DNA of 34,612 nt, from IMG/VR virus record IMGVR_UViG_3300002137_000055, positions 1 through 34,612 of that record. One strand, 5' to 3'. The position numbers and the translations under genes are program-made. The notes beneath the pieces were generated by a model. That model had not been told where the DNA came from. It saw only the letters and a program-made list of their open reading frames with translations, and ran no database searches. Shown in pieces: positions 3,910-34,612 of this stretch (position 1 is its first letter; the number at the start of each line of letters is the position of its first letter). The stretch is from a virus.

Positions 3910-3939
3910 AACAGAATCGGCGGTTCGCTATTTAATAGC
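3910..3939 (+). promoter_or_regulatory. Late promoter-like element PL3 (AACA-N15-TATTTAAT)
   Basis: AACA (3910-3913), 15 bases, then TATTTAATAGCATAA (3929-3943). GCTATTTAATAGC forms a 13-base perfect palindrome. It is located between a strong terminator and the gene starting at 3953, leaving a leader of roughly 12-18 bases. It matches four other late-gene elements. Confidence 0.62.
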
Positions 3940-3952
3940 ATAAACTATTAAC

Positions 3953-4402
3953 ATGGCAACTACAATTACACCCGCAACTCTTACTGTAACAATCACGGAG
4001 TCCATTACTCTTGGAGGTATTGACAGAGGGCAAACACAAACGCTACTCGTTTCAAGCGTAACCGAAACAGATAACAGGATAGTAAACGTTGGAACGGCTG
4101 AAACTGATATAATCGGTTTTGGGTCTGCTAACGGACAAGGCTCATTCATTCGTACAGATGTTAAGTACATCCGAATATCAAACCTTGATGACACTAACTA
4201 CGCAACTATCGGAGTAAGTAAGACGGGAGCAGATACGTTCTTCATCAAACTAGAGGCTGGAAAGTCCTTCATTATGGGTAACGATGACTTAGAAATTGAT
4301 GCTTCTGGAGGTGCTTCTAGTGCTTTCGTTGAGGCTGACAACATTAGCGCAAAGGCTAACGGTGCTGCGGTTGACCTTAATGTATTTGTAGCATTAACTT
4401 GA
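3953..4402 (+). CDS. Virion-associated protein of unknown function, beta-rich
   Basis: A 149-residue Thr/Ile/Gly-rich protein with no enzyme motif. The middle part (KYIRISNLDDTNYATIGVS, then FFIKLEAGKSFIMGNDD) resembles small beta-sandwich structural proteins found near the portal gene in Bacteroidota phages. It is the first gene of the unit that runs through the portal, connector and lysis genes, and its promoter-like element is well defined. Head decoration protein or head fibre are the most likely roles, inferred from position and composition only. Its stop overlaps the next start in TTGA. Confidence 0.5.
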   Translation: MATTITPATLTVTITESITLGGIDRGQTQTLLVSSVTETDNRIVNVGTAETDIIGFGSANGQGSFIRTDVKYIRISNLDDTNYATIGVSKTGADTFFIKLEAGKSFIMGNDDLEIDASGGASSAFVEADNISAKANGAAVDLNVFVALT

Positions 4403-7244: not shown

Positions 7245-9311
7245 TTGCTAACTCTCAATCAAATACACGCCCAAATAGTAACTCTGGCAAACGCCCACTT
7301 TCAAATAGCGGAAGTGGGAATGGGAACGATAGCGGAACTACAAGGGAAACCCGATAGGCTATACCCGCTACTTTGGCTATCTAACGAAGGCGGTTCGTTA
7401 GAGGATAACTACAAGGTTGATAATATTCGCTTGACAATGTTCGGGCGTGTTATCGCGGGTGAAGAGGGGCAAGACGATGACGCTTCAGAGATTGAGGTGT
7501 TATCAGATATGCAATTGATTCTACTTGACTTTCTGAACTACTTTCACCAACAACACGGTCAAGAATATGTTACGGATAAGGCTGCCACATTAGAACACTT
7601 TACAGAACGAACGAATGACAGAACAGCGGGTTACTCTTGTGTCCTTGAATTAAAGCAGTTCTACGATTGGAATAAATGTCAGATTCCACAAAGCGGAGCA
7701 AGCATTCCTCCAAGTGTTGACGGGTTAACTTTGTACGACTTTTGCGACCAAAGTGTTATAGACAGATTAACAGCCCCACAGTTAGCTTGTTTATCTGCGG
7801 AGTTTGGAGGTGCTGACGTAACTATACAAGTTGATGGTAATACGATAGATACAACGCCAGCAGGTTCTACTTATAGCTTTACGTCAAAAGATACTGCGGG
7901 AACAACGATAGGAACGATTGCAAACCCTTCTATAATTGCAGACACAAATATTCGTAATCAAGCTAACGATTGGACAGATACGGAATTAGCAGAAGGAACA
8001 TACACACTAGGGCTTCAAAGAGTAATTGATTCAGATGGTTCAAATGTTGATACCGTAGATTATAAACCAATAGCAGACGGTGCTGTTTTTACGTGTACAC
8101 CCGCAACTAATCCATCTTTAGCGGTTGCCTTAGACGTAGCTACAATTGAGTTTGGAAAAGACCTAACGATAACAGCAACTCCTACGGATATTACTCCTAC
8201 AAATTATTACGCCTTTACGGAGGGTAGCTTGGGGTCATTGACCAAGATAGGCAGTCAAGCGGGTAATGTATTTAATTGGGCTGTTGATAGTGTACAAGGT
8301 GCTAATACAATCTACGTAAATGCTAACGATGGTAGTGCATCATGCTTTAACATTGTGGGTGAAGCGTTAACGGTTACAACGGTTTACATGAATAACGCCT
8401 TTGGTGGTGCTTTAGGATTATGGAGCGCGACAAAAAGAAGTGAGTTATTCGCATCTGCTTGGGGTAGGGTTAGGAGAAGTTCAGATAATGACGAGGCTGA
8501 CTTTTCGCTATTAACTGGGACTCCTGAAAGATTTGATAACACTTCAATCGCCTCTAATAGTTCTCCCGCTTCACATGATGGGGATACGTTTGCAACGTTC
8601 ATAGGTGCAACTAACGGATTCGTTCCTAACATCTATGACCAGGCGGGAAGTTCTGACGGTTCACAGACAACGGCTGCAAGTCAACCAAAGATTGCTACAA
8701 CCGGAACAATCAACACCAATTCAGGTTATCCAGCTTTAACATTTGATGGTAACGATAATTTTAAAGTGTGGAATAACACAACTGCTCCAGTAGCGTATCA
8801 AGGACTAAGCGATGCAATAACAATTGTAGCATGGGTTAAACCGAGCGCGATGACTACTGATGTTGGGGCTGCATGGTCACCAACATTTACATTGGTTGAA
8901 TTAAGGGTTAACTCTTCATCCTCAACCACTAAAGTACCGTTCAGTTTTGGGTTTGATAATAGTCGTTTACGTTGTGGGTTTACCGATAACTATACAACCA
9001 ACGCGGAAAACGTTATCAGTAACTCAACATTCCCGGTAGGTAACATTAGAATGGTTGCGGTTACGATTAATGGCGATGTTGTGAAGCTATACGTAGATGG
9101 TTGTTTGGATATTGAACAAACGCTAACTGTAGCAACGGGAAATAGAAGCGTAGGTGCTTTAAATAGTTCCTTGATAATTGGCTCACGTTCACGAGATGGA
9201 GGACAGGCAGACAGCTCTTATTATTGGGGAGATGTGATGGACATGGCCATTTACGATAGCGTGTTGAGTGATGACTATATAAGCAAACTAAGAAGATATT
9301 ATCTAAGCTGA
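7245..9311 (+). CDS. Neck/tail-completion domain fused to LamG-like adhesin domains
   Basis: A 688-residue fusion. Residues 1-150 (MLTLNQIHAQIVTLANAHFQ, RLYPLLWLSNEGG, QLILLDFLNYF, GYSCVLELKQFYDWNKCQ) look like the small neck or tail-completion protein that normally stands alone here in Bacteroidota phages. Residues about 160-380 are Thr/Asp-rich, Ig-like repeats. Residues 385-490 contain GRVRRSSDNDEADF and FVPNIYDQAGSSDG, as in arabinofuranosidase-B-like lectin domains. The last 200 residues are a concanavalin/LamG-type domain (AITIVAWVKPS, VKLYVDGCLDIEQ, DMAIYDSVLSDDYI). It probably displays a glycan-binding module at the neck. TTG 7245 is the only start that keeps the conserved N-terminus, since an in-frame stop lies at 7233. 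A 49-codon frame from ATG 7208 overlaps it. Confidence 0.68.
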   Translation: MLTLNQIHAQIVTLANAHFQIAEVGMGTIAELQGKPDRLYPLLWLSNEGGSLEDNYKVDNIRLTMFGRVIAGEEGQDDDASEIEVLSDMQLILLDFLNYFHQQHGQEYVTDKAATLEHFTERTNDRTAGYSCVLELKQFYDWNKCQIPQSGASIPPSVDGLTLYDFCDQSVIDRLTAPQLACLSAEFGGADVTIQVDGNTIDTTPAGSTYSFTSKDTAGTTIGTIANPSIIADTNIRNQANDWTDTELAEGTYTLGLQRVIDSDGSNVDTVDYKPIADGAVFTCTPATNPSLAVALDVATIEFGKDLTITATPTDITPTNYYAFTEGSLGSLTKIGSQAGNVFNWAVDSVQGANTIYVNANDGSASCFNIVGEALTVTTVYMNNAFGGALGLWSATKRSELFASAWGRVRRSSDNDEADFSLLTGTPERFDNTSIASNSSPASHDGDTFATFIGATNGFVPNIYDQAGSSDGSQTTAASQPKIATTGTINTNSGYPALTFDGNDNFKVWNNTTAPVAYQGLSDAITIVAWVKPSAMTTDVGAAWSPTFTLVELRVNSSSSTTKVPFSFGFDNSRLRCGFTDNYTTNAENVISNSTFPVGNIRMVAVTINGDVVKLYVDGCLDIEQTLTVATGNRSVGALNSSLIIGSRSRDGGQADSSYYWGDVMDMAIYDSVLSDDYISKLRRYYLS

Positions 9312-13677: not shown

Positions 13678-13779
13678 TTTAGAATGATTATAAACTACGT
13701 TGATTTCGTGCTTAAACGCAATTAATTTGCCTTATGTATTTCGTTTATGCGAAATATCAATTACTAAAGTGTATATTTG
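13678..13779 (+). promoter_or_regulatory. Early regulatory module 1: IR1, IR2 and TATATTTG promoter
   Basis: IR1 TTTAGAATGATTATAAA (13678-13694, one mismatch from a perfect dyad), IR2 ATTTCG-TTTATG-CGAAAT (13738-13755) and the -7 box TATATTTG (13772-13779). The segment TATATTTGGTCTATAATTAA is identical in module 2 at 16799. IR2 begins 34 bp before the -7 box in both copies and so covers the -33 region, where no TTTG is present. That suits an activator that replaces -33 contacts, or a repressor. Confidence 0.72.
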
Positions 13780-13803
13780 GTCTATAATTAAAAATCAATA
13801 ATC

Positions 13804-16725: not shown

Positions 16726-16806
16726 TTTAGAATCATTCTAAACTACCTTAATTTTGCAATAAACATTTCGATTAAGCGAAATATCTAAAAGTAAACTGTA
16801 TATTTG
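16726..16806 (+). promoter_or_regulatory. Early regulatory module 2: IR1, IR2 and TATATTTG promoter
   Basis: IR1 TTTAGAATCATTCTAAA (16726-16742, a perfect dyad around one base), IR2 ATTTCG-ATTAAG-CGAAAT (16765-16782) and TATATTTG (16799-16806). Sequence and IR2-to-box spacing (34 bp) equal module 1. IR1-to-IR2 spacing is 39 bp here and 60 bp in module 1, a difference of 21 bp or two helical turns. Confidence 0.75.
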
Positions 16807-16832
16807 GTCTATAATTAAAAAACAAAACGATT

Positions 16833-17885: not shown

Positions 17886-18187
17886 GCTACTACAACACAA
17901 CAAGCCTCAAAGGTGAAGAACTCAAAACGAGCGAGTCTAAGGCACTAACACAAGATGAAGAGGTACTTAGACTATTCAAGACGTTTGACGCGCTTACACT
18001 TACTCCAGAGCGATTACACAAGCACTTGATAGAAACAGTTGGTGGTAAATGGGAACGAACCCCAACCACAAGTTTGAGGCGTTCTTTTTCTAATCTGAAG
18101 AACAGGGGCTTAATCGAAAAGACGGAGACAATGGTAAAGGGTAACTACGGTAAGCCTGTTAACACTTGGAAGCTAGTCAATGTCTAG
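17882..18187 (+). CDS. Winged-helix-like protein
   Basis: A 101-residue protein, MSYYNTTSLKGEELKTSESK followed by a winged-helix pattern: DEEVLRLFKTFDALTLTPER, PTTSLRRSFSNLKNRGLIEK and GNYGKPVNTWKL. The start at 17882 overlaps the previous stop as ATGA. An upstream open frame to 17831 overlaps that gene and was not used. Similar proteins lie in early regions of Bacteroidota phages. It probably binds DNA. Confidence 0.62.
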   Translation: MSYYNTTSLKGEELKTSESKALTQDEEVLRLFKTFDALTLTPERLHKHLIETVGGKWERTPTTSLRRSFSNLKNRGLIEKTETMVKGNYGKPVNTWKLVNV

Positions 18188-18378: not shown

Positions 18379-18409
18379 TTGCAAGGTTTAAAAGATTAAA
18401 CTATATTTG
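18379..18409 (+). promoter_or_regulatory. Promoter (TTGC-N19-TATATTTG), leaderless geometry
   Basis: TTGC (18379-18382), 19 bases, TATATTTG (18402-18409). The ATG at 18415 is 5 bases after the box, so the mRNA would start at the start codon. It drives the replication operon beginning with a small helix-turn-helix protein. Confidence 0.78.
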
Positions 18410-18890: not shown

Positions 18891-19560
18891 TTTACAATGG
18901 TTTAAATTCAGCCCATCCGATTGGATGATGGGGCGAATACAGCGCCAACCACCACAAGTACAGGTTGACTTTCTTAGGCTCTGTTGTAAGTACTGGCAGA
19001 AGGACGGTGTAGTGTCTGTTGAAGACGCTGAGATTGAGGCGATGGATAGTTACGACACGCTAGTTAAATACAAGGTTGTCAAGGTAGAAGATGATTCAAT
19101 TGTAATTGATTTCTTAGATGAGCAGCTAGAGTCTTTAGAGGGGAAACGAAAGCAAGCGTCTGAAGCTGGTAAACGTTCAGCTGCCGCAAGGAAACGCAAG
19201 AAAGAAACCAACGACCGTTCAACGACCGTTGATAAACCGTTGAACGAAAAGGAACAGAGTAGAGAAGAAGAGAATAGAGAAGAAGAGACAATACTAGAAA
19301 CGGATTTTGATTTGTTCTTTATGGCATACGGAAAGAAAGTAGATTTAATACCTTGCCAACGTGAATGGTCAAACATTGATAAAGCTGAACATCAAAAAAT
19401 ATTAAAGCACGTTCCGAAATACGTTAGCGCAATCCATGATAAGAAGTACTTGAAAAGTCCTCTTAAATACCTAAAGGATAGAACTTGGTTAGATGAAGAC
19501 CTGCCAAACGCAAAACCAAAGACAGAACGATTTATACCAACACCTCCAAAGATTTACTAA
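18883..19560 (+). CDS. Replication protein, helicase-loader/primosome-like
   Basis: A 225-residue protein. The N-terminus (MDNLQWFKFSPSDWMMGRIQ, then VQVDFLRLCCKYWQKDG) resembles the DUF1376-like or DnaD-like N-domain of phage replication proteins. A middle low-complexity region is rich in Arg/Lys and Glu (REEENREEET). The C-terminal part (FDLFFMAYGKKVDLIPCQRE ... LKSPLKYLKDRTWLDEDLPN) matches the small helical domain that often precedes a DnaB gene. It ends in a 1-base overlap with the helicase gene, so a helicase-loading role is likely. Confidence 0.68.
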   Translation: MDNLQWFKFSPSDWMMGRIQRQPPQVQVDFLRLCCKYWQKDGVVSVEDAEIEAMDSYDTLVKYKVVKVEDDSIVIDFLDEQLESLEGKRKQASEAGKRSAAARKRKKETNDRSTTVDKPLNEKEQSREEENREEETILETDFDLFFMAYGKKVDLIPCQREWSNIDKAEHQKILKHVPKYVSAIHDKKYLKSPLKYLKDRTWLDEDLPNAKPKTERFIPTPPKIY

Positions 19561-20906
19561 TGAGCATTGAAAAACAAGTTATTGGAACACTGATTGCGTT
19601 TCCTAATCAATACATTGAGGTTAGTGAATTACTTAACGACAATTCATTTACTGAACCTGAAACAAAAGCAATCTTTGAGACATTCGTAAAGCTATTTAGC
19701 GAGGACGCAAACATTAGCGCGTCACTAATTCAAGAGCGACTACTTAAAAGCAATTGCAAACTTGACGTAACGTCCGTTATTGACTTCTTAGATTCTGGAA
19801 CTTCATTTATTGAGCATTGCCAAATACTAAAGGAAAAGGAAATAAGACGGGAGCAGACAACACTAGCATCTGAACTACTCTTAAAAGCTAACGACAATAC
19901 ACTAGACCCGTTTGAAACTAACGACTTTCTAATGGAGCAAGCGGAGCGCGTTGTTTCGATGGTTGACTTTGGGAAAAAGAACAGCAACAAGGAATTGATA
20001 AAGTCTGTTACTCAAAAAATGGAGCTTGCTCAACGTAGCAATGGAATGACTGGATTACTAACGGGCTTTACAGAGCTTGATAAAGTTTACGGGGGGCGGC
20101 AACGTTCGGATTTGATTATCAAAGCTGCACGTCCTGCTATGGGAAAAACAGCTCAGGCACTTTGCGAAGCCAAACACATGGCATTTAATGAAGGCAAGAA
20201 GGTTGTTTTCTTTAGCTTAGAAATGGGAGCAGAACAACTAATGCAAAGGCTTGTAAGTGTTCACACTGGAATCCCTTTAGGAACTATTAGAGCAGGTAAA
20301 TTAGACCGATTACAATGGGATAAATACAATCTGAATGCTGACTACCTAACGAGTGACAATCTAATTATCGTTGATGACGTTTACTCTTTGAATGGTATTA
20401 GAACGCGATGCAAGAAGCTGAAGATGTTAGGCAACCTGGACGCGGTTTACATTGACTATCTTCAATTGATTAACCACAAGGTTGGTGTAGGTAGGTCTAA
20501 GGAGCAAGAGGTTAGCGAAATATCAAGAGCATTAAAGATGTTGGCTAAGTCGTTAGACGTTCCTGTTGTTTGCCTTAGTCAACTTTCAAGAGCAGTAGAA
20601 ACAAGAGGGGGTACTCACAAGCCGATGTTGTCCGACCTTAGAGATTCTGGAGCTATTGAACAAGACGCTGATATTGTGGAGTTCATTTTCAGACCAGAGT
20701 ACTATGAAAAAGAGGATGAATCTTTACACGGAGTTGCTTATGTGATAATAGCAAAACATCGTAATGGAGCTTGTGGAGATATTGAATTAACCTTCAAACA
20801 TGAATGCACTAGGTTTGAGAATGTACAGGCGTATTCAGTGCCTAAAAACGAAAGCATTGAAAGTGTTATGAAACCATCTAATAACTTTGAAGAAGCACCT
20901 TTCTAA
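19560..20906 (+). CDS. dnaB: DnaB-like replicative helicase
   Basis: A 448-residue hexameric helicase that unwinds the replication fork. It has the N-terminal DnaB domain (MSIEKQVIGTLIAFPNQYIE) and a RecA-like ATPase domain with Walker A RPAMGKTA (about residues 191-198), the FFSLEMGAEQLMQRL segment after it, Walker B AVYIDYLQLI (about 296-305), LSQLSRAVE and LSDLRDSGAIEQDADIVEFI. Length and motif order are normal for the family. No separate primase gene was recognised, so the phage probably uses the host primase. Confidence 0.93.
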   Translation: MSIEKQVIGTLIAFPNQYIEVSELLNDNSFTEPETKAIFETFVKLFSEDANISASLIQERLLKSNCKLDVTSVIDFLDSGTSFIEHCQILKEKEIRREQTTLASELLLKANDNTLDPFETNDFLMEQAERVVSMVDFGKKNSNKELIKSVTQKMELAQRSNGMTGLLTGFTELDKVYGGRQRSDLIIKAARPAMGKTAQALCEAKHMAFNEGKKVVFFSLEMGAEQLMQRLVSVHTGIPLGTIRAGKLDRLQWDKYNLNADYLTSDNLIIVDDVYSLNGIRTRCKKLKMLGNLDAVYIDYLQLINHKVGVGRSKEQEVSEISRALKMLAKSLDVPVVCLSQLSRAVETRGGTHKPMLSDLRDSGAIEQDADIVEFIFRPEYYEKEDESLHGVAYVIIAKHRNGACGDIELTFKHECTRFENVQAYSVPKNESIESVMKPSNNFEEAPF

Positions 20907-21590: not shown

Positions 21591-21598
21591 TATATTGC
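21591..21598 (+). promoter_or_regulatory. Putative -7 box (TATATTGC) of the sigma-like gene, leaderless geometry
   Basis: TATATTGC (21591-21598) is one or two bases away from the TAnnTTTG consensus and lies 4 bases before the GTG start, the same geometry as the boxes at 11626 and 26371. No good -33 element is seen 19 bases upstream, so the promoter may need an activator. Confidence 0.5.
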
Positions 21599-21602
21599 AT
21601 CC

Positions 21603-22109
21603 GTGAAAGAGACAATGTGCAAGCACGTTATAACAGACCCATCGCTAAAATCGTTGGCTTATAATCTTGTGGTCAAGGTTAACAACGGGCGGGAGTTGAG
21701 TATAGTACCTCTGCGCGAAGACCTACTGCAGGAACTAGCTTTGATAATCTGCGAGAAGACAGAAGATGAACTAGCTAAGATTCACGGATACTTCAATTTT
21801 TGGTGCGTTAGAACACTAATCAATATGTGCGGTAAGCGCGGTAACTTTACCAAGAAGTATGCAATAAAGGATTTGAATTATGAGGATGCTAAATTTGATA
21901 TTGAATCAGAATACGATGGAAAGGTTGACGAGACACTTGATAAACTGGACAAGATATTAACCGGAGTTCATTGGTACAAGCGTGATTTATTCAAGCTATA
22001 CTTAGAGTGTGGAACGTTCAGGGCGGTTGAGGATGAGGTAGGGATAAATTACGTAAGCGTTTACCACACGATTAAAGATGTCAAGAAACATATAATCGCT
22101 AGCTTATGA
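21603..22109 (+). CDS. Sigma-70-like transcription factor
   Basis: A 168-residue protein with the plan of a compact sigma factor: a region 2-like part at about residues 38-88 (LREDLLQELALIICEKTEDE, then HGYFNFWCVRTLINM) and a region 4-like helix-turn-helix at about 122-162 (WYKRDLFKLYLECGTFRAVE, then GINYVSVYHTIKDVKKH), joined by an acidic linker. Such proteins replace the host sigma and redirect RNA polymerase. It is the first gene after replication and before the packaging and structural genes, where a late regulator is expected. The start is GTG 21603. Candidate sites are the five late elements described elsewhere. That pairing is inferred, not shown. Confidence 0.7.
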   Translation: MKETMCKHVITDPSLKSLAYNLVVKVNNGRELSIVPLREDLLQELALIICEKTEDELAKIHGYFNFWCVRTLINMCGKRGNFTKKYAIKDLNYEDAKFDIESEYDGKVDETLDKLDKILTGVHWYKRDLFKLYLECGTFRAVEDEVGINYVSVYHTIKDVKKHIIASL

Positions 22110-22342
22110 TAATTCAAACGACACTAGCAGCAATGTCAACAGCGGTCTTCGCTATGGCGGTCACTCAGTTCACTAAGCGAATAGGCTGTAAACCGTTTAA
22201 CTGTGAGTTGTGTATGACGTTTTGGATATCGTTGTTAATTAGCCTAATGGCTTTTAACTATGTTTTGGATGCCATTACATTTGTAGGCATCGCAGTATTC
22301 ACCCGTCAACTATTGTGGAAGGTATGGGCAACGATGTTTTAA
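22106..22342 (+). CDS. Small membrane protein with CxxC motif
   Basis: A 78-residue protein with two to three hydrophobic spans (MIIQTTLAAMSTAVFAMAVT, then ISLLISLMAFNYVL and AITFVGIAVF) and a short loop with FNCELCMTFW. The C-x2-C before an FW-containing span recalls DUF1360-type phage membrane proteins. Holin is a possible role, as is a membrane-remodelling or metal-binding function. It is coupled by ATGA to the sigma-like gene. Confidence 0.58.
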   Translation: MIIQTTLAAMSTAVFAMAVTQFTKRIGCKPFNCELCMTFWISLLISLMAFNYVLDAITFVGIAVFTRQLLWKVWATMF

Positions 22343-22548
22343 CAGAAGAAGAACAGACGTTCTTAGCTGCCAACGCTGAACAGATTACTCAGTTTGCGGG
22401 GTCATTATTCGCGGGGTCTATTGACATGGATAGGCGGGATATGTATCAACGATTATACTTTAAGGCGGGAGGCAAGCAAGAGATTTGTTATACTTGTGGA
22501 GGGTCGCTTAAACATTTAGGAATGAAATTAGAGGCGACATGGCTTTAA
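22324..22548 (+). CDS. Small hypothetical protein with CxxC
   Basis: A 74-residue protein (MGNDVLTEEEQTFLAANAEQ ... EICYTCGGSLKHLGMKLEAT). CYTCG may hold half a zinc site or a redox pair. ATG 22324 is preferred; GTG 22315 is an in-frame alternative. It overlaps the previous gene by 19 bases and the next by 10. Proteins of this size with CxxC precede glycosyltransferase or terminase genes in related phages, without known role. Confidence 0.48.
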   Translation: MGNDVLTEEEQTFLAANAEQITQFAGSLFAGSIDMDRRDMYQRLYFKAGGKQEICYTCGGSLKHLGMKLEATWL

Positions 22549-23306
22549 TAGCAATGGCGGTATTTGATACCGAAGAAAACAATCGGACGCAATACACCAA
22601 GCGAACGCTCGAATGTTTGATGGATACGGTTGATTTAGCATTCCATAGAATACACGTAATTGATAACGCTTCTTGTAAGGCTACTAAGCAAGTGCTTAAA
22701 GACTTTGAGCCACACATAACCGTACACACCAATGGACAAAACATCGGAACGGCAAAGGCGGTTAACATTGGATGGCAACATAGACAACCAGGTGAACACG
22801 CTATCAAGATGGATAACGATGTAGTGATACATTCTAAAGGATGGGTTGAAGAAATGGAGGAGGCTATTATGTTAGACTCTAAGATTGGTATTGTGGGTCT
22901 TAAACGTAAGGATTGTTGGGAGAAACCAACCCACGAAAACCCACACTACAAGTCAACTCTTGAACTATTAGGAGGCGTTAACCACAAATGGATTCCAATC
23001 GAAAAGGTTAATCATGTGATGGGTACGTGTCAGATGTTTAACTCAGCGTTACTAGATAAGATAGGTTACCTTTACCAACCTAGATTGTACGGCTTTGACG
23101 ATTCTTTAGCCGCTATCCGTTGTCAGGTCGCGGGGTTCTATTCCTGTTTCATTCCCCACATTGAGATAGACCACATCGACACGGGCGAAACGCCGTATCA
23201 AGGATGGAAAGAGAAACACTCAGGCGAAGACATGGTTGCTTTCAACCAAATTAAAAACGCTTACCTTAACGGAACTAAACCAATATACTGTGATAGTAAT
23301 TACTAA
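22539..23306 (+). CDS. Family 2 glycosyltransferase
   Basis: A 255-residue GT-A fold glycosyltransferase. Seen are the N-terminal strand and HVIDNAS (41-45), QNIGTAKAVNIGW (67-79) and the metal-binding acidic motif MDNDV (91-95), followed by GTCQMFNSALLDKIG and an acceptor-side YGFDDSLAAIRC. It should transfer a sugar from a nucleotide-sugar donor; the acceptor is unknown. It heads a group with a second glycosyltransferase and a sugar acyltransferase. Virion protein, host surface glycan or DNA base are the possible targets. Confidence 0.85.
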   Translation: MALIAMAVFDTEENNRTQYTKRTLECLMDTVDLAFHRIHVIDNASCKATKQVLKDFEPHITVHTNGQNIGTAKAVNIGWQHRQPGEHAIKMDNDVVIHSKGWVEEMEEAIMLDSKIGIVGLKRKDCWEKPTHENPHYKSTLELLGGVNHKWIPIEKVNHVMGTCQMFNSALLDKIGYLYQPRLYGFDDSLAAIRCQVAGFYSCFIPHIEIDHIDTGETPYQGWKEKHSGEDMVAFNQIKNAYLNGTKPIYCDSNY

Positions 23307-24000
23307 CATCTACGCACCCAACAACCGTACTAAAAAGATGGTTGAATCATTCGAGCGTTTTGGATATGAAATGGCAATACTTAACGCTGAATGGCCTAAC
23401 GGTAGAATATTTAACAACCTAGCGCAATGCTACAAGAGGGCTGCAACAGGTCATGAAACATTCCTTTATTCAGATGCTGGAGATTCATTCTGCCAAAAGC
23501 CCTTCACCGTCCCTAATGACCGTCTAATCTGGTCAACTGAAAAGCATTGTTTTCCACACGTTGAGATAGCTAAAGAATATCCAAACCCACGTACTAAAAC
23601 GGATTGGAAGTACTTAAACAATGGAGGGTACTGTGGTTCATTAGAGTTGATGAATGAGTTTTCAGACAAGTACATAGGCAAACTAAAGCTAGATGCCAAC
23701 TGTCAGCACGAAACAATGGTTGCATTCTTACAAGCTAAGAAAGATGGATTTCCTATCTACCTAGACTACAAGTGCAAGATATTCCAGACGATTGCATTCG
23801 ACCCTGCCAAACCTAATAAGGGTGAACCAATCGACAGAGCAAGTTATTCTATTCACCGAGATGATAAAGGCAACCCAACTTACACCGGAACAGACTTTAA
23901 GATTGTGAAAGGATTAGTAGTAAACAAGATGACTAAAACAACCCCGTCTATCCTACACGGTAACGGGCAAACACCGATGGAATGGATTTACCAATTATAA
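23290..24000 (+). CDS. PLOD-like glycosyltransferase
   Basis: A 236-residue protein with the pattern of procollagen-lysine glycosyltransferase-like domains: IVITNIYAPNNRTKKMVESF at the N-terminus, FLYSDAGDSF (acidic sugar-nucleotide/metal site), YLNNGGYCGSLELMNE and DANCQHETM. The start is uncertain: GTG 23290 gives a clean first strand and a 17-base overlap with the previous gene, whereas an ATG at 23236 lies inside it. Likely adds a sugar to a protein or glycan acceptor. It belongs to the glycan-modification group. Confidence 0.7.
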   Translation: MIVITNIYAPNNRTKKMVESFERFGYEMAILNAEWPNGRIFNNLAQCYKRAATGHETFLYSDAGDSFCQKPFTVPNDRLIWSTEKHCFPHVEIAKEYPNPRTKTDWKYLNNGGYCGSLELMNEFSDKYIGKLKLDANCQHETMVAFLQAKKDGFPIYLDYKCKIFQTIAFDPAKPNKGEPIDRASYSIHRDDKGNPTYTGTDFKIVKGLVVNKMTKTTPSILHGNGQTPMEWIYQL

Positions 24001-24227
24001 TACCTTGCTTCTTTTATACTGAAGAGTCAGTTGAAGCTGAAAAGGTTGCTGAACTAATAGGAAAGGAACTAGAAAACGATGCTCACTTTTTAGTGCAAGA
24101 CGTTTACTTCTTCAATATAACCTATGTGTGTTCTCACCCAAACAATACTAGCACAATGATTGGAACGGCAAACGAGGACTTTAGAAGTCCATTACCTTTG
24201 GATAAAATACTAGAACTAATAAAATGA
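23982..24227 (+). CDS. Small hypothetical protein
   Basis: An 81-residue acidic protein (MDLPIIIPCFFYTEESVEAE ... FRSPLPLDKILELIK) lying between the second glycosyltransferase and the sugar acyltransferase, overlapping both (19 and 4 bases). No recognised domain. It may be an accessory of the glycan cassette. Confidence 0.48.
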   Translation: MDLPIIIPCFFYTEESVEAEKVAELIGKELENDAHFLVQDVYFFNITYVCSHPNNTSTMIGTANEDFRSPLPLDKILELIK

Positions 24228-24796
24228 AACTAGCAATAATAGGCGCGGGTGGTTTCGGGCGAGAAGTCTATCACTCATTCAAACAGAACTTTACAGAGGT
24301 TCGCTTCTACGCAGAAGATGAATACGCGGGAGGCATGGTTAAGAAGCTATCTTCATTCGACCCGACCAAAGAGAAGGCTGTAATCGCAATAGCCGACCCA
24401 ACACAACGCCAACGGATAGCTGAATCAATGCCAAAGGAAACTAACTTTGCAACGCTTATACATCCGTCCGTTATTATCATGGATTCGATTACTATCCTTC
24501 CAGGTACTATCATTTGTGCTAATTGCGTACTAACCACAAACATTAACATCGGGAAACACGTTCATCTTAACTTAGGCACTACGGTAGGGCATGACTGTAT
24601 TCTAAACAACTACTTTACTACTGCACCCGCAGTTAACATATCAGGCAACGTTACAACAGGTAGACGCGTTTACATAGGTACTAACTCTAGCATAAGAGAA
24701 AAGGTAGACTTAACGCATGACGTTACTATTGGCATGGGGTCTGTTGTACTGAACGACATTAAAGAAAGAGGCACTTACGTAGGATTGATTAAGTAA
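24224..24796 (+). CDS. NeuD/PglD-like sugar O/N-acyltransferase
   Basis: A 190-residue protein of the NeuD/PglD family. The N-terminal Rossmann-like part opens IIGAGGFGREVYHSF. The C-terminal left-handed beta-helix contains LIHPSVIIMDSITILPGTII, the likely catalytic His123 in TVGHDCIL, then APAVNISGNVTTGRRVYIG and GMGSVVLNDI. These enzymes use acetyl-CoA or similar donors to acylate an amino or hydroxyl group on a sugar. It is unusual for a small phage and suggests that a specific modified sugar is displayed or transferred. ATGA and TAATG overlaps tie it to its neighbours. Confidence 0.84.
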   Translation: MKLAIIGAGGFGREVYHSFKQNFTEVRFYAEDEYAGGMVKKLSSFDPTKEKAVIAIADPTQRQRIAESMPKETNFATLIHPSVIIMDSITILPGTIICANCVLTTNINIGKHVHLNLGTTVGHDCILNNYFTTAPAVNISGNVTTGRRVYIGTNSSIREKVDLTHDVTIGMGSVVLNDIKERGTYVGLIK

Positions 24797-25209
24797 TGGC
24801 AAAGCATAAGTACATAGAAACTCCAGAAAAGCTAATGCAGTTATTCAAAGACTATGTTCTGCATGAACTAAAGAATCCAATGTATAAGCGTGAATACGTG
24901 GGAAAGGATGGAGAAGAAAAAGACACTCCACTTCAAACGCCAATCACTTTCGAGGGTTTTGAATGCTACCTTTCTGAACTTGAAATCATTGAGGACTTAG
25001 GGGATTATTCTAGCAATAAAGATGGTAGATATGGCGAATATGCCACTATCATAACGCGCATACAGAAAAATTGCTATGTACATAACTTCAAAGGTGCTGC
25101 GGTTGGACTGTTTAACCCTAGCTTGATAGCTCGTAAGTTAGGTCTAACGGATAAGAGCGAAGTAGTACACAAAGAACAACCCTTGTTTCCAGACAATCCA
25201 GATGTATGA
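24796..25209 (+). CDS. Terminase small subunit / DNA-packaging protein
   Basis: A 137-residue protein immediately before the large terminase (ATGA overlap). The N-terminal helices (KYIETPEKLMQLFKDYVLHE) and the segment LQTPITFEGFECYLSELEII match the DNA-packaging proteins that recognise phage DNA in Bacteroidota phages. The C-terminal LFNPSLIARKLGLTDKSEV block is typical for small terminases that bind the large subunit. Role assigned by pattern and gene order. Confidence 0.75.
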   Translation: MAKHKYIETPEKLMQLFKDYVLHELKNPMYKREYVGKDGEEKDTPLQTPITFEGFECYLSELEIIEDLGDYSSNKDGRYGEYATIITRIQKNCYVHNFKGAAVGLFNPSLIARKLGLTDKSEVVHKEQPLFPDNPDV

Positions 25210-26369
25210 CGTTCATACGGACAACCGCAATCAACAAGATACGGGCAATATCAGCGCGTAAGAAAGTAATACAAGGCGGAACAAGCGCGGGTAAAACGTT
25301 TGGCATTCTTCCAGTACTCATAGACCTAGCAACAAAGACAGAACGTTTAGAGATATCCGTAGTGTCTGAATCAATCCCTCACTTACGTAGGGGCGCGATG
25401 AAAGACTTTATCAAGATAATGATGGAGACAGGTCGCTATATTGATAGCGGTTGGAATAGGTCGTTACTAACTTACAACTTCGTTAACGGTAGCTATATTG
25501 AGTTCTTTAGCGCAGACCAAGAAGGACGGCTAAGAGGTGCAAGAAGAAACATCCTTTATGTAAACGAGGCAAATAATGTACCGTTCGATGCGTACCATCA
25601 ATTAGCGATTAGAACAAGTAACGAGATTTACTTAGACTTCAATCCGACTGCTCAATTTTGGGCACATACAGAAGTACTACAAGAGCCTGATTCTGAACTA
25701 CTCATCCTCACATACAAGGATAATGAAGCTCTACCAGCTAACGTATTACAAGACTTTAACAACGCAATAGTAAAAGCTGAAACATCCGACTATTGGAAAA
25801 ATTGGGTGCGCGTTTATGTGAATGGTGAGATTGGGAGCCTACAAGGCGTTATCTTCTCCAATTGGAATCAATGCGACAAGATGCCTGAAACATGGAAATG
25901 GAAAGCATACGGGATAGATTGGGGATTCACTAACGACCCAACAGCCGTTGTCGAGGTATGTGAGTTTGACGGTAAGCTATGGATTAACGAGATACTATAC
26001 GAGAAGGGATTAACCAATGCAGACATAGCCGACAAGCTGGACGGGTTTAGAGGTCAAGAGTTCATAGCCGATAGCGCAGAGCCTAAGAGCATTGAGGATA
26101 TAAGACGTAGAGGATTTAGAATTAGACCATGTGATAAAGGTAGAGATAGCGTTCGTTCTGGAATAGATAAGCTACAACAGTACCCGTTAATGATAACAAG
26201 CAACTCAACCAACATAATCAAAGAGGCAAGGGGTTATACATGGGCAACGGATAGGGCGGGCAAGGAAACAGGAGAACCTATAAGCAACATGAATCATGCA
26301 TGGGATGCAATTCGTTATACTGCAATGGAGAAACTAAAAGCAAGGTCGGGGCAATATTCGATTAGATAG
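25206..26369 (+). CDS. terL: Terminase large subunit
   Basis: A 387-residue ATP-driven packaging motor and nuclease. Walker A GGTSAGKT (24-31), Walker B NILYVNEAN (115-123), coupling motif YLDFNPT (142-148). The RNase H-like nuclease domain has acidic residues Asp238 (GIDWGFTNDPTA), Asp289 (IADSAEPKS) and Asp367 (NHAWDAIRY). Length is on the short side for the family but all motifs are present. The phage's circular map suits headful packaging, in line with such terminases, though cos packaging is not excluded by sequence alone. Confidence 0.93.
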   Translation: MTFIRTTAINKIRAISARKKVIQGGTSAGKTFGILPVLIDLATKTERLEISVVSESIPHLRRGAMKDFIKIMMETGRYIDSGWNRSLLTYNFVNGSYIEFFSADQEGRLRGARRNILYVNEANNVPFDAYHQLAIRTSNEIYLDFNPTAQFWAHTEVLQEPDSELLILTYKDNEALPANVLQDFNNAIVKAETSDYWKNWVRVYVNGEIGSLQGVIFSNWNQCDKMPETWKWKAYGIDWGFTNDPTAVVEVCEFDGKLWINEILYEKGLTNADIADKLDGFRGQEFIADSAEPKSIEDIRRRGFRIRPCDKGRDSVRSGIDKLQQYPLMITSNSTNIIKEARGYTWATDRAGKETGEPISNMNHAWDAIRYTAMEKLKARSGQYSIR

Positions 26370-26370
26370 T

Positions 26371-26378
26371 TATATTTG
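26371..26378 (+). promoter_or_regulatory. Putative -7 box (TATATTTG), leaderless geometry
   Basis: TATATTTG fills most of the 13-base gap between terminase and the glycosyltransferase gene, 4 bases before its ATG. The gap is too short for a separate -33 outside the terminase gene, and no clear TTTG lies 19 bases upstream. Confidence 0.55.
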
Positions 26379-26382
26379 AACC

Positions 26383-27315
26383 ATGAAAATAGGGATAGTA
26401 TGCAAGGGTGAGGGCGGTGTTGATTACCATAGACTAATCAAGCCGTTCAGCCTAATGACAGAGCATGACGTTACACGCTGCGAAGGTGTCTCAGAAGATA
26501 TGTTTGACTACAACTTTGACGTTGTGGTGTTCTCTAGGATTCTACCCATCAAGAAGCAGAAGGAGTTCATCCAGGAGCTTCAGAAACGAGGCACCTATGT
26601 GATATGTGACATTGATGACCATTGGATATTATCAAACAACCACGCAACCAAGAAGATAGGAGATGCTTTTAGGAAGTACTCTATTGACGCTTTGATGTAC
26701 GCTGATGAAGTCTGGACAACTCACGAGGTACTAGGCAAAGAGGTAGGGCGGTTAAACAACCATTGGCACGTAATACCAAACGCATTAGACCCGAACGAAC
26801 CAATGTGGCAACCTAAGACAACGTATGGCAATCGGATAGGATGGGCGGGAGGCATTACACACTTCCACGATTTGATGTTAACGGATGGTTGTTGGGGTGA
26901 TACCACACCTGTGATATGTGGCTTTAACGAGCATCAAGAGTGGGTTAAGTTAGCCGATAGATTCAAAGCCGATTACATTAACGCTTTGCCAGTTACGGAA
27001 TACGGTTATCTTTATGACCAATTCGACATAGCTATTGCGCCTTTGGAGGACAACAAGTTTAACACAATGAAGTCTAACCTCAAGATAATAGAGGCGGGAA
27101 TGAAGGGGCTTCCTATCTTTGTTCAGAACATACACCCGTACATAGATGACGCTAAAGGAATTTTTAAGGTTAACGACTGGGCTACCTCTTTGCAAGAAGC
27201 ATCGAATATGGAAACTGAATCCATCAAAGGATATGGTACTGAACTACGTAGGTATGTATTGGATAATTATGACATCAACAAAGTCAACAAACTCAGAACA
27301 GAAAGACTAAAATGA
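26383..27315 (+). CDS. GT-B fold glycosyltransferase (family 1/4-like)
   Basis: A 310-residue protein with GT-B features: MKIGIVCKGEGGVDYHRLIK at the N-terminus, VIPNALDP (typical linker between the two Rossmann halves), IGWAGGITHFHDL and the donor-binding IAPLEDNKFNTMKSNLKIIE followed by AGMKGLPIFV. It has a host-type -7 box directly upstream, and overlaps the tail-chaperone gene by ATGA. It is separated from the other glycan genes by the terminase pair, but is likely part of the same modification function. Confidence 0.78.
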   Translation: MKIGIVCKGEGGVDYHRLIKPFSLMTEHDVTRCEGVSEDMFDYNFDVVVFSRILPIKKQKEFIQELQKRGTYVICDIDDHWILSNNHATKKIGDAFRKYSIDALMYADEVWTTHEVLGKEVGRLNNHWHVIPNALDPNEPMWQPKTTYGNRIGWAGGITHFHDLMLTDGCWGDTTPVICGFNEHQEWVKLADRFKADYINALPVTEYGYLYDQFDIAIAPLEDNKFNTMKSNLKIIEAGMKGLPIFVQNIHPYIDDAKGIFKVNDWATSLQEASNMETESIKGYGTELRRYVLDNYDINKVNKLRTERLK

Positions 27316-27971: not shown

Positions 27972-28102
27972 ATAGCCTAACCAATGGCAGACCCGAACTG
28001 TGGGAGTTCTACTTTGAAATGAATATCTTAGAGCTTCTGAATCGGTTAGCATATCAGAAAGCCAAGAGCGCGTACGAGCGTCAGCAAAACAAAAAGCGTT
28101 AG
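27842..28102 (+). CDS. Tail assembly chaperone, -1 frameshift extension
   Basis: The -1 frame from the T run to the TAG at 28100-28102 reads EGLAQVRKEYGGLFGDKGES, then STFHSTYGWLYTIDSLTNGR and PELWEFYFEMNILELLNRLA, a typical tail-chaperone T-domain pattern. TTG 27851 could in principle start it separately, but there is no ATG and frameshift fusion is standard in this gene pair. The region overlaps the end of the short product by 130 bases. A homopolymer sequencing error is unlikely to explain it, since both frames are open and protein-like. Confidence 0.62.
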   Translation, partial: FEGLAQVRKEYGGLFGDKGESAETTSGASVSTFHSTYGWLYTIDSLTNGRPELWEFYFEMNILELLNRLAYQKAKSAYERQQNKKR

Positions 28103-28121
28103 TTTACTATTTATTAGTATG
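28088..28121 (+). promoter_or_regulatory. Late promoter-like element PL4 (AACA-N16-TATTTATT)
   Basis: AACA (28088-28091), 16 bases, TATTTATTAGTATGG (28108-28122). The ATG of the next gene (28119) lies 3 bases after the box, as at 1028 and 28749. The element overlaps the last codons of the chaperone frame. Confidence 0.52.
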
Positions 28122-28622
28122 GCGTTCACTTACAGAAAAACAGTCAAGGCACTAAACAACTCAATGGAGTTGATAGCCAAAAGTCTAAAGAGTAGATTAG
28201 AAGAAAACTTCTCGGACGCTTCTGGTGACTTAGGTAGCAGCATTGCAGTTTCGGCTATTAGTAAAAAATCGGGTTCTTTAGAGGTTAACATATCAATGCT
28301 TGACTATTGGGAGGCGTTAGATAAAGGGCGTAAACCTGGAAAGCAACCTCCAATTAACAAAATAAAGGAGTGGTTAACCTATCCAAACCCAAGAGCAAAA
28401 CTAGGACTTGAAGGCGTTTCAAATGTCAACATTGCAGAGGTTAATTCTTTAGCATTCTTGATAGCTAGAAAGATAGGCAAGAAGGGAACTAAGGGTAACA
28501 ACTTTGCGAGCGATGTATTTGATTCAAAAAAAGTAACTGTTGATTTACCAAACGCAATAGCCGATGCAGTATTTGAAGACTTAAATATTGTGCTAGATGA
28601 TTTGGTTACAAGCATTAATTAG
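28119..28622 (+). CDS. Neck protein (HK97 gp10-like head-tail/tail completion protein)
   Basis: A 167-residue protein with the HK97-gp10-like pattern: ALNNSMELIAKSLKSRLEEN, MLDYWEALDKGRKPGKQPPI, IKEWL and LAFLIARKIGKKGTKGNNF. This family seals the head-tail joint. It has its own late-promoter-like element and is followed by a terminator, so it forms a one-gene unit. Confidence 0.7.
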   Translation: MAFTYRKTVKALNNSMELIAKSLKSRLEENFSDASGDLGSSIAVSAISKKSGSLEVNISMLDYWEALDKGRKPGKQPPINKIKEWLTYPNPRAKLGLEGVSNVNIAEVNSLAFLIARKIGKKGTKGNNFASDVFDSKKVTVDLPNAIADAVFEDLNIVLDDLVTSIN

Positions 28623-28718: not shown

Positions 28719-28752
28719 AACATTTTGCGCTGATTGCTATTTAATAGTATGG
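28719..28752 (+). promoter_or_regulatory. Late promoter-like element PL5 (AACA-N15-TATTTAAT)
   Basis: AACA (28719-28722), 15 bases, TATTTAATAGTATGG (28738-28752), the best match to the consensus of the five. The ATG at 28749 is 3 bases beyond the box, suggesting a leaderless transcript for the tail operon. Confidence 0.65.
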
Positions 28753-29984
28753 CAGTAATAGTTCAATCACAACCAGAAGCATACGGACTGGCTCACAATG
28801 ATAACCCGTTCGTATTCTTCTCCACAGCTTACACAGCTACACAACGGTTTAAAGTTGTTGTGTTGCCTAGCACCTACCCTACTGACCCTGCACTATCAAC
28901 GGTTCGCGTTTATCCAAGAGTAGGGATAACAAGCGGTGGAACGGTTCAGCTCAATAAAGCGTATTACGACCCGTCTAGGATTCTGCAGACGCAAATGGCA
29001 GCGCAGGTATCAATACCATCTGCTAACCATGCCACGCTATTCACTGCGAATAACATCCACTTCGAGTATGCTCTATTTATCCAAGAAGAAGACTTAGTTG
29101 GAGGTGTTTATGTATTGGGAAGCTCATACATCTCAAGCATAAAAGGCGTATGGAATGGAGTCAGGAATAAGGTAGACTGGTTAACATTTGACTATACTGA
29201 TTACGACATGAAGTCAAGTGTTGGCGGGAAGAAATTTCTTACTGACGCTCCACGAACTCAATACATCAACAGCAATCAATCTTCATTTCTATACTTCTTA
29301 TCCTCAACAACAACCATAACAAGATTATTTATCAAGTCATATGACGCTAATGGCAGTTTGATTGTAAGTACACACATATCAAATCCAAAATCATATACGT
29401 ACACAATGGCAGCGTGTGGCACGTATGACATAACCAACTCAGCACCATCTACATGGAACTCATCTAACGCAGCTGCATTCTTTAACGGTGCCGCTTACTA
29501 TACTGTTAATACTTCAGGCATAGCTGATAATGAGATAGTCACATTCTACATTGATTCAAAATGTTCTAAGTACACACCTATTCGTTTACATTGGCTGAAT
29601 AGATTAGGCGGGTTTGATAGCTTCAACTTCAATCTAAAGAGTACGGAGGACGAGGATATTAAACGAGCTTCATACAAGCAAGAAGAACACAACTTTACTG
29701 GTACATCTTGGGAGTACACAAAGGCAAGTAGAGGAACAACCGATTACCATATCCAAACCCAACAGAAGCTAACGGTTAACACGGACTATTTAACAGAAGC
29801 GGAGTCTACATGGATGAACGACCTGTTTACGTCTCCTGTAATTTACCAAGAGGTGAACAATGAACTCATTGCTATGTCTGGAAAGCCTAAGAGAATCAAG
29901 AAGCAAACAAGCCTCAATGACAAGTTGATGCAGTACGAGTTTGAAATGGACTATTCGCTAAGTAACAATAGACAACGTGGGTGA
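28749..29984 (+). CDS. Tail protein (probable distal tail or baseplate component)
   Basis: A 411-residue beta-rich protein. The start at 28749 (MAVIVQSQPEAYGLAHNDNP) is chosen because a TTG at 28734 would lie inside the promoter-like box. The block PIRLHWLNRLGGFDSFNFNL and the following RASYKQEEHNF are typical of tail proteins of Bacteroidota phages, where they lie just before the long hub-like protein. No enzyme motif. Distal-tail-like role is inferred from order. Confidence 0.58.
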   Translation: MAVIVQSQPEAYGLAHNDNPFVFFSTAYTATQRFKVVVLPSTYPTDPALSTVRVYPRVGITSGGTVQLNKAYYDPSRILQTQMAAQVSIPSANHATLFTANNIHFEYALFIQEEDLVGGVYVLGSSYISSIKGVWNGVRNKVDWLTFDYTDYDMKSSVGGKKFLTDAPRTQYINSNQSSFLYFLSSTTTITRLFIKSYDANGSLIVSTHISNPKSYTYTMAACGTYDITNSAPSTWNSSNAAAFFNGAAYYTVNTSGIADNEIVTFYIDSKCSKYTPIRLHWLNRLGGFDSFNFNLKSTEDEDIKRASYKQEEHNFTGTSWEYTKASRGTTDYHIQTQQKLTVNTDYLTEAESTWMNDLFTSPVIYQEVNNELIAMSGKPKRIKKQTSLNDKLMQYEFEMDYSLSNNRQRG

Positions 29985-33506: not shown

Positions 33507-34612
33507 TGGCAACAGATAAAAAGGTAATAGCGTTAAAGGTAACCGTAGATACATCTACAGTAAGCACAAGCGTAAAGAAGACTACTAAGGACGTTGAGAA
33601 ATTAGGAGACACAACTAAGAAGGCATCCGAAGAGATGAGTTCGGGGTTCAAGTCTTCTTCTGAGAACGCTAAAGACTTAGGCGGGAAACTTGGCGGGGCT
33701 GTGGGTGGTGCGCTATCATTTGCATCGGGAATAAAGACAATGACTAAGGCTGCGCTTGCCTTTATTGCTACGCCTCTTGGTGCTGTTATCGCTGCCATTG
33801 TTGCGGTTGGTGCATTGCTTAAAGCGTTCTTTACATCTTCTGAAGAAGGTGAGCAAAAATTAAGAATAGCAACGGCGGCGCTATCGGCTGCATTTAGTGT
33901 ATTCATCGACATAATTTCATCAGTAGGGGGGAAATTAGTTGACCTATTCACCAAACCACAAGAGACATTAAAGGACTTCGGGGAGTCAATTAAAAGCTAT
34001 GTGATTGACAACTTTAAGTTAATCCTATCGGGTGCTACTAAGCTAGGTCAAGCGATGGTTCAACTATTCGAGGGAGACTTTGATGGTGCTGTTGAAACTG
34101 CAAAAGAGGGGGTTCTTGAACTAGGTGAGGGCATGTTAAAACTTAACCCATTAACAGCTATTCCAATAGCCCAAGCGAAAGCATACAAAGAGTTAGGTAT
34201 TGAGATTCTTAACGATGTCAAGGCTGCGATGGAGCTTGAGGATGCAATGAATGGTGTCAAGGTAGCGGAGCGTGCGTTAGGTGTTGAGAGAGCTAAAACA
34301 CTTACATTAATTGCAGAGGCAAGATTAGCAGCGGAGGACGAAACAAAGAGCGCACAAGAAAGAGTTGATGCTCTTAAGAAGGCGGCAGAGCTTGAAACCA
34401 ATTTAACAGAAAAAGAGCTTGCCAATGCAGAGGAGAAGTTAAGAATTATTAGAGAACAAAACGCTCTTAGCAAATCAAACGAGGCAGCGTTACAAAGTGA
34501 ATCAGATGCGGAGGCGGCACTAGCACAAGTACAACTGGCTTCTTTGAATCTGAATAGAAGATTAAAGACAGAAATCAACTCCTTAGAACGTGAGATTGAA
34601 ACGGAACGAATA
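33506..34612 (+). CDS. Tail tape measure protein, N-terminal part (continues at 1-998)
   Basis: N-terminal portion of the tape measure, cut by the window end. It begins MATDKKVIALKVTVDTSTVS, then a Lys/Ser-rich coil, a hydrophobic segment (LAFIATPLGAVIAAIVAVGA at about residues 87-106) and long charged helices (ALKKAAELETNLTEKELANA). The frame is open to the last base, in phase with 1-998. Across the join the protein is 660 residues, consistent with a tail of roughly 100 nm by the usual 0.15 nm per residue rule. Confidence 0.9.
   Translation, partial: MATDKKVIALKVTVDTSTVSTSVKKTTKDVEKLGDTTKKASEEMSSGFKSSSENAKDLGGKLGGAVGGALSFASGIKTMTKAALAFIATPLGAVIAAIVAVGALLKAFFTSSEEGEQKLRIATAALSAAFSVFIDIISSVGGKLVDLFTKPQETLKDFGESIKSYVIDNFKLILSGATKLGQAMVQLFEGDFDGAVETAKEGVLELGEGMLKLNPLTAIPIAQAKAYKELGIEILNDVKAAMELEDAMNGVKVAERALGVERAKTLTLIAEARLAAEDETKSAQERVDALKKAAELETNLTEKELANAEEKLRIIREQNALSKSNEAALQSESDAEAALAQVQLASLNLNRRLKTEINSLEREIETERI
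34491..34612. repeat. Right copy of terminal direct repeat (assembly overlap)
   Basis: Equals bases 1-122 with three mismatches (34582, 34588, 34611). Removing one copy leaves 34,490 bp. The first 91 bases are identical and all three mismatches lie in the last 31 bases, toward the contig end. Confidence 0.93.

Follow-up and report, generated by a model that had tools for sequence, protein, structure and literature searches.

The viral DNA analysed here (the window, 34,612 nt in its whole length) carries an open reading frame on the plus strand at 21603–22109, which has a GTG start and encodes 168 aa, as the initial annotation had it, and the GTG start is also kept in the nearest relative, L014. 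The gene was flanked by replication genes, with a DnaB-like replicative helicase upstream (19560–20906, +; phrog_19, E 1e-87), and by packaging genes, with the terminase small subunit (TerS, 24796–25209, +; phrog_606, E 1e-16) and large subunit (TerL, 25206–26369, +; phrog_2, E 1e-32), so its described setting between replication and packaging was correct. Glycosyltransferase genes and an acyltransferase-like gene were seen within the packaging region (22539–24796 and 26383–27315), and a 688-aa late protein (7245–9311) with a C-terminal concanavalin-like lectin domain (Laminin_G_3, E 1e-14) is possibly a receptor-binding protein. A 120-bp terminal direct repeat was present at 1–120 and 34491–34610, and a tape-measure-like gene appears to span the join of the window ends, which makes a near-complete, circularly permuted genome probable. 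Hosts among the Bacteroidota were inferred because TerL relatives occur in Flavobacterium psychrophilum phages and in Bacteroidota genomes.

To describe the protein, 32 homologs were collected from scans with the 168-aa protein, its distant relatives and TerL, and aligned (alignment A4). This alignment and an AlphaFold2 model bore out the arrangement that had been proposed, which is a region 2-like half (residues 2–86, 21606–21860, +; from A4 and the model helices) with DLLQE at residues 40–44 followed by FNFWCVRTLINM, an acidic linker of low model confidence (residues 87–105, 21861–21917, +), and a region 4-like helix-turn-helix half (residues 106–168, 21918–22106, +; from VIA-align). D40 was almost invariant in A4. 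About 11 extra residues (approximately residues 26–37) stand right before DLLQE and were not found in the close relative L014.

The single-sequence search with the 168-aa protein gave no significant family (Pfam, PHROGs), PDB or cultured-phage match, and a coronavirus NSP1 Pfam model at E 0.024 was under the model's cut-off and was disregarded. When the A4 profile was searched against all PDB chains, the top two matches were sigma factors and both were full-length (3mzy, E 9e-5; 5wuq, E 0.015). At Pfam curated thresholds the window protein had no match, while its relatives matched Sigma70_r2 in 9 of 32 cases (best E 4.5e-5) and Sigma70_r4_2 in 3 of 32 (best E 0.0066), and 11 of the 32 A4 members matched the PHROG sigma family phrog_1740. 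The A4 profile was also run against 296 Bacteroidota genomes, where it found proteins at E 1e-8 to 1e-18, those inspected being mostly ECF sigmas, with the host ECF sigmas scoring E 1e-10 to 1e-18, together with one closer phage-type pair at E 1e-30; seven of the ECF-like host proteins were scanned with Pfam and had strong r2 and r4 domains. A profile from only the four closest sequences recovered host ECF sigmas as well (best E 1e-7). In the reverse search, a host-ECF profile reached the window ORF at E 3e-6 and only family members ranked above it; because the host ECFs had been picked with A4, we treat this as a consistency check which is not fully independent. The sigma similarity that had been suggested therefore held in profile comparison, both with sigma factors of the PDB and with host ECF sigmas, in the latter case in both directions.

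Structure comparison pointed the same way. The AlphaFold2 model had pLDDT 82 and pTM 0.49, with confidence below 50 at residues 90–101 (an earlier model from 3 sequences was poor, with pLDDT 50, and was left unused), and all of its 50 best Foldseek matches were sigma factors, with a best E of 0.034 and a probability of up to 0.98. Every individual Foldseek E-value was above 0.001, and the pTM leaves the domain arrangement in the model uncertain. VIA-align gave Z 8–10 across both halves, and the region 4 half alone fitted several sigma structures at 1.6–2.7 Å (3mzy: Z 9.3, rmsd 2.4 over 66 residues; 3vfz: Z 8.8, rmsd 1.6 over 59 residues); the large whole-chain rmsd was due to the different domain arrangement. 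ECF sigmas are defined by the presence of regions 2 and 4, the absence of regions 1.1 and 3, and homology to known ECF sigmas. The first two points were met in A4 and in the PDB profile and structure matches of both halves, and the third was met because the profiles find each other both ways. The 168-aa protein is a divergent two-domain ECF-type (Group IV) sigma factor, for which core binding and transcription initiation are inferred.

The gene also has a conserved place. Among 50 loci of related phages, each with at least 2.5 kb upstream of TerL, a sigma homolog preceded TerL on the same strand in 40, and the loci without one had at most 4.4 kb of upstream sequence each. Upstream of the terminase of isolated Flavobacterium (FpV9), Elizabethkingia and Bacteroides phages with related TerL, no sigma homolog was found, and the Elizabethkingia record had less than 1 kb of upstream sequence. 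RinA and ArpU, which are regulators of Firmicute phages, occupy the same gene position before the terminase, and this, together with the region 4 half being among the best modelled parts, would suit a protein that has a sigma fold and yet works like them, not as a free sigma but by a region 4-type DNA binding that activates host holoenzyme at late promoters. We consider such an activator unlikely, since the protein has a full region 2 with the conserved DLxQE motif and matches ECF sigmas over its full length, and the elements before the late genes contain a -10-like box unlike the host box.

Host-type TATATTTG boxes were found in the early region at 13772–13779, 16799–16806 and 18402–18409 (all +), the last one upstream of an ORF of 50 aa that weakly matches a helix-turn-helix, and a further one at 26371 precedes the glycosyltransferase gene at 26383. 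Two 73-nt repeats (13726–13798 and 16753–16825), which are 82% identical, stand before early genes and have a TATATTTG box in each. TAnnTTTG is the sigma-A box of Flavobacterium, and TAnnTTGY is promoter motif SM5 of F. psychrophilum (PMC9723704). The sigma gene had been given a weak host-type box of its own, and indeed the TATATTGC box before it (21591–21598, +) fits the TAnnTTGY of SM5 (PMC9723704), with the G of GTG as the expected start site; a perfect TATATTTG stands at this place in the relatives L048 and L050.

A different element was found directly before late genes, in five copies which were all on the late strand (+), and its consensus was AACA-N13/14-RCTATKTA (in a longer form AACA-N13/14-RCTATKTAwyAG). 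The copies are AACA-N13-GCTATTTAACAG at 998–1026, ending 1 nt before the ATG of gene 1028–1600; AACA-N13-GCTATGTATTAG at 1616–1644, before gene 1663–2298; AACA-N13-GCTATTTAATAG at 3910–3938, before gene 3953–4402; AACA-N14-ACTATTTATTAG at 28088–28117, ending 1 nt before the ATG of gene 28119–28622; and again AACA-N13-GCTATTTAATAG at 28719–28747, ending 1 nt before the ATG at 28749. G001 is the nearest relative with a full contig, and its sigma is 62% identical; the first element is conserved in G001, and the ortholog of the gene behind the second has the one-base variant AACA-N14-GCTATTAAGATAG. The gapped pattern AACA.{13,15}CTAT[GT]TA occurred 5 times on the plus strand of the window and not on the minus strand, against 0.2 per strand in dinucleotide shuffles. 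The pattern had been fitted to the window, so G001 was the independent test, and there it occurred 6 times on the plus strand and 0 times on the minus strand, with 0.11 expected per strand. A G001 match at 18118 was treated as chance, and so was a CTATTTA at 29785 of the window, which lies within a gene.

At four orthologous genes of the window and G001, the two boxes were identical at 16/16 and 31/32 positions, but the spacers at only 19/53 and the upstream flank at 27/80. The non-host late elements of the initial annotation are thus real and conserved, and with host-type TATATTTG boxes at early genes and the other element at late genes, the window has the division that the proposed early-to-late switch needs. 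Since the sigma gene has a host-type box and the virion genes have non-host elements, the former looks host-transcribed and the latter look sigma-transcribed.

At three window sites and three G001 sites, the ATG stood 5 nt after CTATTTA, so the inferred start site would be at the AUG or close to it and leaderless messages would result; in F. psychrophilum, 5.5% of mapped messages are leaderless (PMC9723704). That three of the five elements end 1 nt before an ATG could also mean that they are signals for translation initiation or RNA processing instead of promoters. This is very improbable in our judgement, because the other two elements and most sites in another clade of sigma-bearing phages (c17) are 15–30 nt before the start, and because a second box is conserved at fixed spacing across a diverged spacer.

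The element was also found in further relatives. L015 had three more, one of them immediately before TerS, and L048, L049 and L050, whose sigmas are about 45% identical, had AACA-N14-TATATTTA before TerS or before the ortholog of the gene at 28119. L016 was not counted as independent because its DNA is nearly identical to the window at the element sites. An unbiased k-mer count before start codons gave CTATTTA as the top 7-mer in the window clade (11 against 0.6 expected), and the same count gave it again as the top 7-mer in clade c17 (16 against 1.1 expected), where ACA-N14-CTATTTA occurred 41 times on the plus strand and 0 times on the minus strand. Unlike L015, L050, G001 and G002, which have an element before or near TerS, the window has none directly before TerS (24796), so its terminase may be transcribed differently.

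In clades c35, c42, c60 and L001, which have more distant sigmas of the family, the element was absent, and de novo motif searches there returned only coding or AT-rich repeats. The sigma tree did not join the window clade and c17 (its deep branches are weak), and it does not account for why only these two share the element. The absence of the element with distant sigmas, and the lack of binding data for the sigma on the elements, leave room for a real sigma beside CTATTTA elements that are read by a host alternative sigma or by another phage protein. We think this improbable, as the closest sigmas (L014 at 62% identity, L048 and L050 at about 45%) come with the element, or with one that differs little from it, at late genes, and the window showed no other gene recognisable as a likely late regulator, although many of its genes are unknown.

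We judge it likely that the 168-aa protein, with region 2 and region 4 only, is a phage-encoded ECF-type sigma which serves this phage as its late sigma by means of the bipartite elements. An own sigma together with a matching non-host promoter-like sequence at virion genes means that it probably redirects the host's polymerase to the late genes of the phage. Homology to sigma factors, a conserved gene position ahead of the terminase, conservation of the elements and the early/late split of boxes were established by computation, but the link from sigma to elements is inferred from comparative correlation only. Speaking against this reading are the empty single-sequence searches, the weak individual Foldseek E-values and uncertain domain arrangement, the AT-rich -10 part of the elements, their absence in phages with distant sigmas, the sigma tree, and the lack of an element directly before TerS in the window. 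In the mechanism we propose, the sigma would be made from its host-type promoter in an early-to-middle phase, its region 2 would bind the host core RNA polymerase, and it would guide the core to (A)ACA-N13/14-RCTATTTA before the virion genes, where the ACA box would be read by region 4 and the CTATTTA box by region 2. Leaderless messages would arise at three of the five sites, with transcripts beginning on the AUG or right beside it. Core binding, the assignment of boxes to regions, the start sites, the timing and the sigma as reader of the elements are all inferences.

ECF promoters usually have CGT at -10. The elements have an AACA box and lack this CGT, their -10 part being AT-rich, and they are unproven as sigma targets. 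ECF sigmas generally prefer AAC at -35 (PMC4153023). The window sigma shares with the ECF (Group IV) sigmas of Bacteroidota hosts the two-domain layout, clear profile homology and, if it reads the elements, an ACA/AAC-type -35 box, but it is viral and strongly diverged, would have the AT-rich -10 box instead of CGT, and its type is paired with a membrane protein of 67–99 aa instead of the usual anti-sigma.

The closest known analogue is Xpf of PBSX, a defective prophage of Bacillus subtilis; the Xpf gene immediately precedes those for the terminase, and Xpf switches on the late operon. It is a small Group IV phage sigma with region 2 and region 4 (PMC10141391). The window sigma is also small with region 2 and region 4, which is a likeness of layout without sequence comparison, and its gene is likewise upstream of the terminase on the same strand, as in the 40 of 50 related loci. 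Unlike the window phage, Xpf comes from a Firmicute prophage, and we know of no overlapping CxxC membrane protein for it. By comparison alone, the window sigma would drive the late operon in an Xpf-like way, and phage late sigmas of the region 2 plus region 4 layout are already known in kind from Xpf. Like T4 gp55 and other phage late sigmas, the window sigma is inferred to redirect host core polymerase to late promoters; T4 gp55 is without region 4 and needs the sliding clamp, whereas the window protein has region 4. In the literature, which was covered only in part, no such system was found described for Bacteroidota phages. Gene control in uncultured Bacteroidota phages is little studied, and the present factor and promoter sequence, with their inferred link, provide a concrete late-gene switch for a large group of them. 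Because standard annotation does not pick up the sigma, phages of this kind would be listed as having no late regulator.

An unexpected finding, absent from the initial annotation, was the membrane neighbour of the sigma gene. A hydrophobic membrane protein of 78 aa (22106–22342, +) with KPFNCELCMTFW, of the motif KPFxCxxCxxFW, overlaps the sigma stop codon (ATGA). Its homologs were found in all 48 sigma-bearing loci of the TerL clade; in 42 of these the two genes overlap or are no more than 15 nt apart, in six they are separated by approximately 1–1.3 kb, and the L001 clade yielded no homolog. Viral contigs were also scanned independently with only the DNA pattern of the KPFxCxxCxxFW motif, which gave at least 73 loci with room upstream (L149–L227), and among the loci listed, 59 of 73 had a sigma-family match just upstream of the membrane gene or overlapping it. 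The remaining 14 of the 73 divided into two with weak sigma-like neighbours (L161, L172), nine in which a conserved 135-aa protein took the place of the sigma, and three with unrelated sugar genes. The membrane protein had no match in cultured phages, and an identity as DUF1360 was dropped for want of a match.

The conserved pairing of sigma and small membrane protein suggests possible membrane-level control of phage sigma activity. The small protein is a possible partner of the sigma at the membrane, and hypothetically, being translated next, it would retain the sigma or set its timing. To call it an anti-sigma is a guess, as it is smaller than anti-sigmas usually are and without a recognisable anti-sigma domain. 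As a speculative extension, which we rate as possible but doubtful, uncultured Bacteroidota phages would have a widespread two-gene module, in which an ECF-type late sigma is usually overlapped by a KPFxCxxCxxFW membrane protein that would act as a minimal phage anti-sigma by binding, tethering or restraining it at the membrane, and late transcription would be timed by a membrane or a redox/metal signal.

The protein of about 135 aa (A6) overlaps or abuts the membrane gene on its upstream side in L150, L160, L164, L168, L173, L176, L211, L214 and L221; its resemblance to T4 gp55 was by eye only, and no significant match was obtained with HMMER or hhalign. In L161, a region 2-like and a region 4-like part lie in two overlapping ORFs before the membrane gene (approximately 2377–2917 on the motif strand), which is either a split sigma or a frameshift.
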